A stretch of 64,000 nt of DNA from Bryopsis sp. KO-2023 (taxonomy: Eukaryota > Chlorophyta > Ulvophyceae > Bryopsidales > Bryopsidaceae), in assembly GCA_030272585.1 (NCBI GenBank), contig BSYQ01000011.1, positions 1,426,001 through 1,490,000 of the forward strand, read 5' to 3'. The position numbers and the translations under genes are program-made. Positions 2,864 to 7,853 of the stretch are shown in pieces; the first letter of the stretch is position 1; each line of letters opens with the position of its first letter. The notes beneath the pieces were generated by a model. The model was not told the DNA's origin. It made no database searches and was given only the letters and a program-made list of their open reading frames with translations.

Positions 2864-3626
2864 CGGTTGTGGTAAACACCGAAAACCACCGAAAACCACC
2901 GAAAACCACCGAAAACTACCGAAAACCACCGAAAACCACCGAAAACTACCGAAAACTACCGAAAACCACCGAAAACTACTCACGAAAACCACCGAAAACT
3001 ACCGAAAACTACCGAAAACCACCGAAAACTACCGAAAACTACCGAAAACTACCGAAAACTACCGAAAACTACTCACGAAAACCACCGAAAACTACCGAAA
3101 ACTACTCACGAAAACTACCGAAAACTACCGAAAACTACCGAAAACTATAAAAACTGTAACTATGCAGCGATTACCCTTTATAAAAGGAAAAGGGAAAGAT
3201 AAATATTCAAGACTATTTCAAACAAGACATTTGCTTTCAGAGTGGTAACAAGTGAGTCTCCGAGTGATAGTACTTATCGGCAAGTGGGTATGCAAGTGTG
3301 ACCCTCGGGATTCGAACCCGAGTCAACCAACCAAGGAGCCACTGGAACCAAACCAAGAGTCCATACCATTTTTAACATATTCACTCATATAAACAAAATG
3401 AATGTATTAGTTTCTTTTTTGTGTAATGGGTTTTTTCGGTGGACTCCCCGTTATAAATTTATTTTTACTGTTCAAGTTTTCGTTTTATCATGTCGATTTT
3501 TGTAGTTTTCGGTAGTTTTCGGTAGTTTTCGGTGGTTTTCGTGAGTAGTTTTCGGTGGTTTTCGGTGGTTTTCGGTAGTTTTCGGTGGTTTTCGGTAGTT
3601 TTCGGTGGTTTTCGGTGTTTACCACG
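2864..3626. mobile_element. Foldback-like insertion 1 with tRNA-like core and 14-bp TSD
   Basis: The insertion is flanked by an exact 14-bp direct repeat ACCCTAGTGGGGGG (2850-2863 and 3627-3640). Its ends are inverted: GTGGTAAACACCGAAAACC begins at 2869 and its reverse complement ends at 3625. Both arms are mostly tandem decamers CCGAAAACYA (left arm about 2880-3150, right arm about 3497-3615 in inverse orientation), sometimes broken by CTACTCACG. The unique centre (3150-3496) carries a tRNA-like sequence on the minus strand. No transposase is encoded. The long open frames made by the decamers (repeating T-E-N-[HY]-R-K) are a by-product. A small internally deleted derivative of a larger element is possible. 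Confidence 0.7.
3296..3366 (-). other. tRNA-like Pol III promoter in insertion 1
   Basis: On the minus strand there is a perfect B box GGTTCGAATCC (3309-3319) inside a complete T arm: stem TCGGG/CCCGA and loop TTCGAAT. An A-box-like TGGTTCCAGTGG lies about 20 nt upstream, closer than in a normal tRNA. No acceptor stem or convincing anticodon arm was found. It looks like a decayed tRNA-derived promoter of the SINE type. Confidence 0.55.
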
Positions 3627-3640
3627 ACCCTAGTGGGGGG

Positions 3641-6210
3641 AGTGCGTGGCGTTACTGCTTAAAGCGATCTTTACAGGAAAAGCGAGGTTAATCTTCAACC
3701 TTTGGTTGGAGCGCAGCAAAACAGGTTGCCTGGGTCGAAAAAATCAGTGCACTGAGGTTGTTGGAGGAGTTGCGCTGTGCAGGGTTGCATAACCAGGCGA
3801 CTAAAGTGAGGGTGCGCTACGAAGAAAGCAAAAGTGTGACAAGCGCGAAAACACGTCGACTGGGAACGTCGTGTGGATCGACTCACACAGAACACGAGCA
3901 AATGGGAGGTCGGATCTCTTCCACCTGGTGCGCAAAGTCGTTGGAGTAGGAGTGGTTGCAACCACAACTTTTGTTTCATTGTCGCTGGTGGGGCGCGAGT
4001 GTGTCGGCCAGTTTCGCGGACTTATGATTTGTTTCACGAGGAAAGGTCTATTTTGAGAAGTGTTGGACGGAGTGTTTGAAATGTTGGTGTTTTGGGCTAG
4101 ATTTATGACAAGATTTGCAGTGATCTACGAATAGTTCAGAAGTGCAGTGCAGCAGTATCATTTTTGTTGACTTGACATATCAGAACTGATTTTTACGGTA
4201 TTCGAATTTGTGGAGATTTTGCCACACCATTTCCTTTGGCAGAAGTCTTGGTTGAGAGGGAGAATTTCCATCACTTCTACAATGGAAATTCAGCAAGAGT
4301 AAAGAAAGAAAGAAAAAAAAAAAAAAGGGAAGAAGATTATAGATGAAAAAAAAAAAAAAATCAAAATTCTAAAGAACAGCAAGAGATGGAAGAGTAGGAA
4401 TGGTGTTTCTGAGTTGAAAGATGGAAGTATTTCCACTCAAGTGCGGCACTGTTTGATGACTTGCAGTTGGCATATGTGAGTGCTCCTGTCGATTTGCTTC
4501 TAGTTGTTTCGTTTGGCTGGGATCTGGAAAGAGTGATAAAAGTGTGTGGGCGAGAGCGTCTGGGAAGCGGTGATACTCGTTTGGGGTTTTAGACTCGGGA
4601 AGTAGGGTCGTGTTGGGTTTCTCCCATGTGGTTATTTTGGTACCACTTCTTGGGCGGTGTCGCAGTCCGCAGTATTACTGGGTTTTTCTTGTTTTCGAGT
4701 TTTGGTGAAACCTGTAGGAGAGAAACGGAAGTTAATGCGGAGTGTTTCTTCTTAAAGCAGGTAATGATGCAAGATAGGAGCTTGTTTCAGGTCGCACCCA
4801 TAGGGCGGATGCTCCAGTGTTTCTGGTTTTGACTTTTGGAGTATTCGCTGGGGGACGTTTTGACAGTGTAACTGTGGGTAGACATTTTTATCGACGAAAA
4901 TGCAGCAGGGAGTTTAATGTCGAGTTTTTGGGCCCGTGTTTCTTTTTGGGAGAGTGAGTGTTGTGGACGCGGAAGTTCGACAGTGTTTCAAAAGGACAGA
5001 GTGAGTGTGTCTTCGTGGCAGTAATGAACTTTCTTGTGGAAGGGTAGACATTTTTGGTGAGTGGTGAACGTTCTATTGTCGACGGTAGTTGCGATACAAT
5101 ATCTTTTGGAAAAGGTGTTTCTTTTGCACAACAAGGATTGCGAAAAAAAAAAAAAAAAAATGGCAGAAGTACTGATTGATACGGGAAAAGTCAAGGACCA
5201 GCAGTTTATCAAGGCGGGATTAGCTACCCCGAGTTTATAAGCTGCGGTGATTGAGCGGACCAGGGGTGAGTGTGTGTAGAGGAAGGACTGGGAACGTGTT
5301 TTTAGATGGTTTGTTGGCGACCAATCAAGCGGCAGCCACGGAAAGTTCTGAGCATTATGGGGTGCTCTGTATTTCTGTTGGCGGTCGTGGGATGAGAGCT
5401 GATTTATGAAATACTGTGGGTAGTATCTTTTAGGGGGATAGGAAATGGAAAACGGCTTTGAAACAGAAAGACCAGTCGTGATCAGAGGCAAGAACGACAG
5501 CAGTACTGAGCATCAAAAAGACAGCTCAGAATGGAAGGAGTACGCCCTAACAATATTGCCAAGGAGGTTGTGAGTGGTACCAACAGTATGAGAAGATAGA
5601 GGTACAAGGTTTTTCAGCTAAGGAAAAGATAAGGGAGCAGTTGAAAAATATATATATATATATATGGTGTGTGGACGAAGAGAAGAAAAAAAAAAGAGGG
5701 GGAAAATATATGAAAGGAGTCTTTCAGGGATTGAGGTATTTGTTCTATCTCCAGTATTTCTGATAGGAACAGTGGCAGGTCTGCTTTTGCACTCAATAGT
5801 GACCTGTTGAGGGTATTTGAGGCTAGTGCTGGAGGTCACCATTTGGTTAAAATGGCCAGCAAAAGTCTGTTTACTAGCAAGAGTGAGAGTGGGCGTGAGT
5901 AAAGGGGTTTTTCTTGTTACCTCTGCGGTAGTGACGTTAAGAAGAAAGACGTTCTAACCTTTGTCAGATGGGAGTTGCGGAACAGCAGGTACAGAGTAAG
6001 GGGTACCTTGTCTGAAAGGGAAAAAGAAAGAGTGACAGCGTCAGGTAGACGTGCCTGGGCGACTCTAAAAAGTGCGTCGACAGCAAAAGTGGTGCGACTG
6101 GAAACTACGTTTGCTGTTCAGGAGTTACAGTAAACGTGGTCAGGAAATGGAAGTAGCGTTTGGGACGTTGTTGAAGGAAGAGGATAATGGATATCAAGAT
6201 ACAAAGAAGA
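3641..6210. other. Unassigned 2.6 kb between insertion 1 and the 80-bp array
   Basis: No gene could be recognised. The plus strand is G-rich and resembles the LINE leader at 1-430 in texture (many GTGTTTG, GGAAGT and GACAGTGT words), so it may derive from related repeats. A 76-codon open stretch without its own ATG (5903-6133, plus) contains CYLCGSD, a CxxC pair, and ends in TAA; its origin is unknown. A minus-strand open frame at 4988-5491 is low-complexity and unconvincing. A short (TA)n run lies at 5648-5666. Confidence 0.4.
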
Positions 6211-7380
6211 AAGAGTGATTGTGGAAGAGCCATGGCAGGTTCCAAGATGAGCCGGTGGTTATAAAAGCAAGCGAGGAGGAGTCCTCAAGGAAGAGTGATT
6301 GTTGAAGAGCCGTGGCAGGTTCCAAGATGAGCCGGTGGCTATAAAAGCAAGCGAGGAGGAGTCCTCAAGAAAGAGTGATTGTGGAAGAGCCATGGCAGGT
6401 TCCAAGATGAGCCGGTGGTTATAAAAGCAAGCGAGGAGGAGTCCTCAAGGAAGAGTGATTGTTGAAGAGCCGTGGCAGGTTCCAAGATGAGCCGGTGGTT
6501 ATAAAAGCAAGCGAGGAGGAGTCTTCAAGGAAGAGTGATTGTGGAAGAGCCATGGCAGGTTCCAAGATGAGCCGGTGGTTATAAAAGCAAGCGAGGAGGA
6601 GTCTTCAAGGAAGAGTGATTGTGGAAGAGCCATGGCAGGTTCCAAGATGAGCCGGTGGTTATAAAAGCAAGCGAGGAGGAGTCCTCAAGGAAGAGTGATT
6701 GTTGAAGAGCCGTGGCAGGTTCCAAGATGAGCCGGTGGCTATAAAAGCAAGCGAGGAGGAGTCCTCAAGAAAGAGTGATTGTGGAAGAGCCATGGCAGGT
6801 TCCAAGATGAGCCGGTGGTTATAAAAGCAAGCGAGGAGGAGTCCTCAAGGAAGAGTGATTGTTGAAGAGCCGTGGCAGGTTCCAAGATGAGCCGGTGGTT
6901 ATAAAAGCAAGCGAGGAGGAGTCTTCAAGGAAGAGTGATTGTGGAAGAGCCATGGCAGGTTCCAAGATGAGCCGGTGGTTATAAAAGCAAGCGAGGAGGA
7001 GTCTTCAAGGAAGAGTGATTGTGGAAGAGCCATGGCAGGTTCCAAGATGAGCCGGTGGTTATAAAAGCAAGCGAGGAGGAGTCCTCAAGGAAGAGTGATT
7101 GTTGAAGAGCCGTGGCAGGTTCCCAGATGAGTCGGTGGTTATAAAAGCAAGCGAGGAGGAGTCCTCAAGGAAGAGTGATTGTTGAAGAGCCGTGGCAGGT
7201 TCCAAGATGATCCGGTGGTTATAAAAGCAAGCGAGGAGGAGTCTTCAAGAAAGAGTGATTGTGGAAGAGCTGTGGCAGGTTCCAAGATGAGCCGGTGGTT
7301 ATAAAAGCAAGCGAGGAGGAGTGTCGAAGAAAGAATGATTATGGAAGAGCCGGGGCAAGTTCCAAGACGAGCCTGCGGTC
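6211..7380 (+). repeat. 80-bp tandem repeat array (14.6 units) with a 400-bp higher-order period
   Basis: Units start every 80 bp from 6211 (AAGAGTGATTGT...). Fourteen are nearly identical; the fifteenth (7331) is diverged and split by an insertion. Variant positions (GTG/CAT or GTT/CGT, GGTT or GGCT, CCTC or CTTC) show that units 1-5 and 6-10 have the same order of variants and unit 11 matches unit 1. The last amplification therefore copied a 5-unit, 400-bp block. Every full unit contains TTATAAAAGC, a good TATA-box match. Unit-to-unit differences are few, so the array is young. No coding function is seen. Confidence 0.92.
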
Positions 7381-7843
7381 AGAGATAGGACTTGGGCCAA
7401 ATTTTTGGTCCGACTCCGGTCCGGTCCGGTTACGGTCGGGTTACGGTCACCGTACTACGGCCGTAACTCCGTACCGTAACCGGAGTAATATGTTGTTTTT
7501 ACGGTACGGAACAGGTACGGTATAACTACGGTAGGCCCTAAATCACCGTGAAGTAGCGTGGTTCAGTGCTAAAGCGTTAGGCTGCAGTCAGTAGGGTCGC
7601 AGGTTCGAATCCCCCTGGGTTCCTTTGGAATCGCGGGACCCTGCGGGGGTCACTTTCTACGGTTTACGGTTGTTACGGCCGTTACGGTCGTTACGGTCCG
7701 GTACGGAGCGGTACGGAGTGGTACGGTGCTACGGTTACGGCCGTAAAAGTACGATTTTCTGACGAAAATTGTACTCCGGTTACGGTCCGGTTACGGTGGT
7801 TACGGTCCGGTTACGGTGACCGTAACCGTAAAGTCCTATCTCT
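7381..7843. mobile_element. Foldback-like insertion 2 with tRNA-Cys-like core and 10-bp TSD
   Basis: A 463-bp insertion into the last 80-bp unit. Its ends are perfect 13-bp inverted repeats: AGAGATAGGACTT at 7381 and the complement ending at 7843. The flanks are an exact direct repeat GCCTGCGGTC (7371-7380 and 7844-7853). Removing the insertion and one copy restores the 80-bp unit (...GAGCC.G.GGT.ATAAAAGC...), so neighbouring units act as an empty site. Inside the termini both arms hold GGTTACGGT/GGTCCGGT-type short repeats in opposite orientation. The centre holds a tRNA-like sequence. No protein is encoded. The design matches insertion 1 but the repeat words differ. Confidence 0.85.
7548..7620 (+). 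other. tRNA-Cys-like sequence in insertion 2
   Basis: A-box-like TGGTTCAGTGCT, anticodon-loop-like CTGCAGT (would read GCA, Cys), and a perfect B box GGTTCGAATCC (7602-7612) appear in tRNA order and spacing. The D and anticodon regions resemble tRNA-Cys. The T stem pairs poorly and no acceptor stem was found, so it is a tRNA-derived remnant or SINE-type promoter and not a working tRNA gene. Confidence 0.6.
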
Positions 7844-7853
7844 GCCTGCGGTC

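Follow-up and report, generated by a model that had tools for sequence, protein, structure and literature searches.

A young, high-copy MITE family in Bryopsis, probably of the hAT type, with a tRNA-like box B core

tRNA-derived SINEs lack terminal inverted repeats (TIRs), carry Pol III boxes A and B, end in a 3′ A-rich or simple tail, and are flanked by duplications of variable length. Mutator-like elements combine a 9-bp duplication with a MULE transposase. In maize, the accessible part of one account sets 331 Ds1 elements against 3 Ac-like elements and describes binding of the Ac transposase to AAACGG subterminal repeats (PMC3260210). For Hermes, the available portion of the source assigns the binding of short subterminal repeats (STRs) to the BED domains of the transposase (PMC10368747).

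The insertion considered here lies in a 64,000-bp stretch of Bryopsis sp. KO-2023 DNA (contig BSYQ01000011.1, positions 1,426,001 to 1,490,000), hereafter the window. A reading of the window made from the letters alone, the sequence-only reading, had described an insertion with inverted repeats, arms of short words in opposite orientation, and a tRNA-like core; the insertion is real, interrupts the end unit of an 80-bp tandem array (6207 to 7373, plus strand, delimited by TRF), and contains both the short-word arms and a box B. Copies elsewhere in the genome, tabulated with their flanks, begin with CAGAGATAGGACTT and end with AAGTCCTATCTCTG, a C preceding the originally reported 13-bp repeat and a G following it. 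Because these bases flank the repeat at other loci, the TIR is 14 bp long, the window element spans 7380 to 7844 (465 bp, plus strand in the reading direction of box B), and the duplication measures 8 bp. The terminal repeats are therefore perfect, as had been stated, but one base longer than the 13 bp given, and the supposed 10-bp duplication reduces to the 8-bp CCTGCGGT (7372 to 7379 and 7845 to 7852), with a G and a C present by chance in the target accounting for the other two bases. Inward from the left TIR (7380 to 7393, plus) follow a left arm of TACGGT- and CCGGT-type words (7394 to 7512, plus), the tRNA-like core (7513 to 7659, plus), a right arm of short words (7660 to 7830, plus), and the right TIR (7831 to 7844, minus). 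The core consists of a degenerate A-box region, box B (GGTTCGAATCC, 7602 to 7612, plus), and a downstream hairpin segment. The empty site seen in the neighbouring array unit is borne out: the joined flanks align with that unit over 100 bp at 86% identity. This comparison, which is paralogous and diverged rather than allelic, supports insertion.

The element, designated family B, was traced through an assembly of 91,088,769 bases in 28 contigs. Among 557 candidates returned by a DNA search with the originally reported interval, the best 40, window copy included, were scored and are 99–100% identical to the window copy. A genome-wide search with the 13-bp terminus, which had been proposed together with box B as a query, gives 394 forward and 398 reverse occurrences, far above chance, the control having none in either direction. 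Spacing of the 13-mer, taken over the first 100 places, resolves into 43 adjacent pairs and 14 unpaired places; 38 of the pairs span 463–465 bp, three span 434–449 bp, one spans 328 bp, and one, the locus L029 discussed below, spans 8432 bp. The 28 copies of exactly 465 bp comprise only five distinct sequences and differ by a mean of 0.70 bases, so the burst is a very recent one; among the 38 pairs, 13 are longer by one or two bases, lengths that are absent from the 28-copy set. Family B is a young, high-copy non-autonomous hAT MITE of roughly 400 very similar copies.

The duplications are equally uniform. In 30 copies the two TIRs are exact and the flanks on either side were read; all eight bases agree in 29 of them and seven of eight in one (L038). 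This set is biased toward young, complete copies, since the best-scoring matches supplied 26 of its members, and in it L020 and L021 represent a single duplicated locus. Pooled, the targets give a palindromic consensus near NCYGCRGN. Outside this count stand L035, which lacks its left flank; the outer copy of L030, split by a nested family B copy; the 8434-bp L029 case, with an 8/8 duplication; and copies whose right end is mutated or missing (the second copy of L031, L032 to L034, L036, L037, L039, L042, and L043). Two copies with a mutated right end, judged by eye, have duplications of 8/8 (the second copy of L031) and 7/8 (L039). L040 (C2:1564922), also uncounted, had been considered as a copy and was set aside as a chance match, no element being visible around its TIR sequence. 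One copy, at positions 200–529 of L031, is 330 bp long and lacks the tRNA-like core, and is bordered by a perfect 8-bp duplication, CACCCAAC. MITEs are also found nested in one another or in larger elements: B in B (L030), B in the core of a family C element (L031), and C in the larger element hAT-B (L095).

The autonomous partner that the sequence-only reading had wished to see sought appears to exist in the form of hAT-B, an element with matching ends, TACGGT words, and a hAT C-terminal frame. At C1:5017013 and C2:1989451, unpaired family B TIRs lead into an interior that is not that of the MITE and is 94% alike between the two loci over 880 bp; over their first 105 bp both, including the C2 end (L042), are 97% identical to the MITE. 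The C2 copy occupies C2:1989450-1995834 (6385 bp) and is flanked on both sides by ATGTGGAG, both ends having been read and 1699 bp (C2:1990301-1991999) lying outside the sequence read. Its left TIR is the same as that of the MITE and its right TIR differs at 2 of 14 positions; the right end as a whole, TIR included, matches the MITE at 90% over 48 columns. On C1, the frame adjoining the left end matches Dimer_Tnp_hAT (5.8e-19). The 350-aa C-terminal frame recurs in at least 31 full-length copies at 99–100% identity, with 116 of 170 candidates scored, and the two copies that fall within the range for which TIR positions were listed (all of C1, and C2 up to 2.435 Mb) both adjoin the unpaired ends at C1:5017013 and C2:1989451. 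On C2 this frame is located by position only, at C2:1990947-1991996, inside the unread 1699 bp. The central frame has no match in a Pfam search and a weak match in the PDB to the Hermes transposase (E 0.008), and a BED domain was looked for in the N-terminal frame with Pfam and not found.

These two copies of hAT-B have themselves been invaded. The C1 copy is interrupted by another element, hAT-1, and then by an apparent Ty3/gypsy retrotransposon; a long open reading frame at L090:2174-4021 with a sub-threshold BED match (E 0.02), initially a candidate for hAT-B, turned out to be this inserted hAT-1, whose start is CATACTAGGGATC and whose ends belong with the family C type rather than with B. 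Inserted in the C2 copy is a family C MITE, 96% identical over 1019 bp and flanked by the duplication CCTGCTGC, and the tRNA-like cores within the C2 copy are consequently not its own, since they belong to that MITE. The interior of the family B MITE, which takes in the core and the greater part of the right arm, is no simple deletion derivative of hAT-B.

The short words of the arms tie the MITE to hAT-B. Counted in either orientation, TACGGT is present 19 times in the MITE; hAT-B has 19 in its first 350 bp and 18 in its last 400 bp, with none in the 500 bp beside the left cluster, none in 1400 bp of interior, and none in the C-terminal frame; 11 further words lie away from the hAT-B ends, at positions 1–500 of L095. 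Family C follows a similar layout with GATCGG: of 34 words in its MITE, 33 are in the arms and none in the central 300 bp, and the counts fall from 22 in the first 330 bp to 1 in the next 354 bp of hAT-1, and from 9 in the first 330 bp to 1 in the next 2050 bp of hAT-2. Since hAT transposases such as those of Ac and Hermes bind repeats of this kind, the arm words can be regarded as ordinary hAT subterminal repeats, and by analogy the TACGGT-type words would be bound by the hAT-B transposase.

The window insertion is best read as a miniature non-autonomous hAT transposon, presumably moved by the hAT-B transposase, a reading to which we assign a probability of about 0.92. The transposase would recognise the 14-bp ends together with the clustered TACGGT-type words, excise the MITE, and reinsert it across an 8-bp staggered target, producing the 8-bp duplications with a preference near NCYGCRGN; an intact hAT-B acting in trans is implied. 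The 8-bp duplication, the TIRs, a hAT transposase in the partner, and shared subterminal repeats are features expected of a hAT family, and each of them is present here. The sequence-only reading had instead contrasted duplications of 14 and 10 bp to propose an undescribed superfamily, with retroposition in mind. A retroposed, SINE-like origin draws on the tRNA-like box B and on the difference in duplication length between families A and B, and is next to impossible to reconcile with perfect TIRs at both ends, an 8-bp duplication in 29 of 30 copies, a hAT element whose ends match, and a 465-bp sequence devoid of any A-rich or simple-repeat tail. Because the duplication is constant and a hAT element bears these termini, retroposition is rejected for family B and no new superfamily is needed; family C, whose TIR is shared with hATs and whose duplication is 8 bp in 7 of 7 copies, points to no new superfamily either.

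A different parent was offered by the 8434-bp element of L029 (C1:9315947-9324378), which would place the MITE in the KDZ (Kyakuja-Dileera-Zisupton) superfamily. It has family B TIRs at both ends, a large transposase open reading frame, and an 8-bp duplication (GTTTTGGC), and the MITE is 99% identical to the 278 bp at its start and 100% identical to the 194 bp at its end; relatives of the reading frame are associated with the KDZ-type CxC4 cluster, which is present in L075 and L077 among the relatives of the inner element (the others being L076, L078, L083, and L084). The inner 7962 bp, however, constitute a separate transposon within a MITE copy, flanked by the 7-bp CACTTTC, itself MITE sequence. 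L079 on C5 is 99% identical over the first 1722 bp of this inner element, with the same start base and an unrelated flank, and relatives at 86–95% identity are free of the MITE in L083 and L084. These independent copies with ends of their own rule out L029 as the autonomous parent, and a KDZ affiliation of the MITE is accordingly very improbable. The KDZ-type ends are AGTNANCTGACC-like and are not shared with the MITE; in the 7970-bp relative at L075/L076 the terminal repeats extend over 440 bp at 96%. The locus as a whole (C1:9315747-9324578) is a KDZ-type transposon of 7962 bp nested in a family B MITE. Its reading frame has no match in Pfam or PDB searches and no relative at E≤0.001 in a protein database, where scoring covered the 7995 candidates with the most shared words; a single-sequence fold gave a pLDDT of 32, too low to be of use, and the KDZ Pfam model matched neither the genome nor the controls and so carries no information here.

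The layout of opposed short-word arms around a tRNA-like core, previously noted for two insertions in the window, is common to at least four families (A to D). The neighbouring family A element (2864 to 3630, 767 bp) carries CCGAAAACYA words and a box B on the minus strand (3308-3318). It is flanked by 10-bp repeats, TAGTGGGGGG (2854-2863 and 3631-3640), rather than by the 14-bp duplication formerly ascribed to it. Its ends match the genome 26 times forward and 25 times reverse, with 0 in the control, and at 21 loci the duplication is an exact 9 bp in 11, an exact 10 bp in two, the window copy being one, and an exact 8 bp in one; five of the remaining loci have no exact repeat (two come within one mismatch) and two are unscorable. 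With its mostly 9-bp duplications, family A probably represents a different superfamily; Mutator-like elements were considered for this family alone, the exact 9 bp being found at those 11 of 21 loci. Relative to its asymmetric ends (CGGTT / GACCC), box B lies on the minus strand in 11 and on the plus strand in 7 of the 19 scorable copies (window, L049-L067), as if the interior flipped between the arms. Also in the window, positions 427-2268 form a 613-aa open frame which, recognised by eye, we take to resemble a LINE-type reverse transcriptase.

Family C elements are 999–1025 bp long in the seven copies read, and their TIR, CATACTATGGATC, occurs 198 times forward and 183 times reverse, with 0 in the control. 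Within the listed range, and with 71 of 227 transposase candidates scored, the 13-bp family C TIR lies 723–898 bp upstream of the transposase in 14 of 14 members of the 56–64% groups and in none of eight members of the 85–100% group (hAT-1), whose two left ends read start with CATACTAGGGATC and not with the family C TIR. More broadly, several hAT families are spread over many contigs with frames mostly of 774–839 aa, falling into near-identical groups (about 100%, 64%, and 56–57% to the query), which suggests recent activity of several autonomous hATs. Family D was surveyed through the best 40 of 494 candidates and is marked by GTTACAACAACG words. The family C core contains two inverted tRNA-like modules, and that of family D two inverted modules within a 409-bp palindrome; in L070 and L044, which represent these two families, the paired modules lie in opposite orientation in a central palindrome.

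Homology links the cores of families B, C, and D: B and C share 69% identity over 102 columns (9e-9), B and D 88% over 59 columns (2e-15), and C and D 57% over 225 columns (1.5e-5). Arm matches between these families are short, at most 37 columns for B and D (E 0.001-0.05) and 25 columns for C and D (E 0.04). Between families A and B, at most 12 identical bases surround box B (E 0.38), and word-like matches in the arms reach the same E value. The tRNA character of the core fared less well than its box B. ARAGORN at default settings finds no tRNA in the window, and Rfam finds none at E≤1 in 10 loci, its sole matches being to hairpin miRNA models and falling short of their cut-offs; ARAGORN yields degenerate tRNA models under relaxed settings only, a milder one giving them in family A and L039 and the laxest in all six cores. 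RNA folding of six core stretches gives z-scores of -1.7 to 0.5, with no unusual stability. The core is, then, tRNA-derived at most, with box B as its best-kept part and any function putative. Absence of the tRNA part from other copies, which had been suggested as a sign of a chance passenger, applies to one 330-bp copy (that in L031) and to the autonomous-partner sequence read. No description of MITEs with a tRNA or box B core was found in a literature search whose reach excluded most subscription papers.

Two accounts of the core compete. The one we consider probable treats it as filler, a tRNA-derived SINE or tRNA fragment residing in an ancestral MITE and shared through recombination or through common descent with fast-changing arms. 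Filler of this sort is usual in Ds-type elements, to judge from the part of PMC3260210 available; nested MITEs (L030, L031, L095) provide chances for recombination, and low-complexity word arms can turn over fast. The module would most likely have been captured once and be common to B, C, and D, or alternatively have been exchanged between nested MITEs rather than captured before those families split. Four short families with box B, set against autonomous pieces without it (8.2 kb of hAT-B, hAT-1, and hAT-2 sequence lack the 11-mer), are left unexplained by filler except through chance and one shared origin. The alternative, which strikes us as unlikely, is that the core is a selected module whose box B binds TFIIIC and improves amplification through open chromatin, a boundary, or a replication pause; on this view, selection acting on the elements would account both for a separate acquisition of box B by family A and for its persistence in B, C, and D. 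The absence of box B from those same autonomous pieces speaks for such a module, as do homologous cores between arms that match only briefly and weakly, and a family A box B that lacks any wider homology.

Variation within the families bears on both accounts. In eight diverged family B copies, which are few and mutually related, no site of the 11-bp box B varies, versus 56 of 147 in the core, which favours the selected module; the lack of changes in the left TIR of these copies is meaningless, because they were chosen by that TIR. In the same copies 19 of 28 sites vary in the A-like stretch and only 17 of 119 in the left arm, which weakens that case. Constraint on the whole core, looked for within family B by change per site, was not seen, the tRNA-like region changing exactly as the right arm does (0.118 each) and more than the left arm (0.039). 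The failure of Rfam and default ARAGORN to see a tRNA, the perfect duplication of the core-less 330-bp copy, and the loss of the exact box B from one of 19 scorable family A copies weigh against selection as well. Family D points both ways: some copies retain 94–98% identity in the 409-bp centre as against 86–91% over the whole, indirect evidence from an inverted alignment, yet the copies nearest the query show the reverse in the same alignment (94–95% whole, 91–93% centre), so that the comparison is not like for like. Filler remains the preferred account of the core. A bolder extension, that a box B (TFIIIC-site) cassette serves as a portable module for amplification, picked up by or passed between non-autonomous DNA transposon families that differ in their ends, their arm words, and perhaps their transposases (the 8-bp hATs and the 9-bp family), favoured in short elements and lacking in their masters, is in our estimate a long shot.

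The puzzle of family B is settled by a known mechanism, and the family offers a clear example of a hAT MITE that multiplied very recently and whose likely master is identified. Were the box B core functional, the cause of the large excess of some non-autonomous elements over their autonomous partners could be put to the test.

Among known systems, tRNA-derived SINEs share with family B a tRNA-like stretch and a box B, which in family B is exact beside a degenerate and variable A-like part; family B differs in its TIRs, its constant 8-bp duplication, its hAT partner, and the lack of a 3′ tail. KDZ transposons are present in the genome, one of them inside the MITE copy of L029, but have ends of their own and are not the partner of the MITE. 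Hermes resembles the present system in the middle of the transposase, by a weak match (E 0.008), in its 8-bp duplication, and, as far as the available portion of PMC10368747 extends, in short subterminal repeats; the repeat words differ, the similarity is remote, and a BED domain, searched for in hAT-B, was not detected. The closest parallel is with maize Ds1 and Ds2 as the accessible part of PMC3260210 presents them: short TIRs, 8-bp duplications, subterminal repeats of the master, a filler interior, and copies that greatly outnumber intact masters. In layout, the family B MITE is short like Ds1 and word-rich like Ds2. Most Ds1 elements lack three or more of the master's repeats, whereas the family B MITE is full of them; the ends and words also differ, and the family B filler carries a box B module common to several families.
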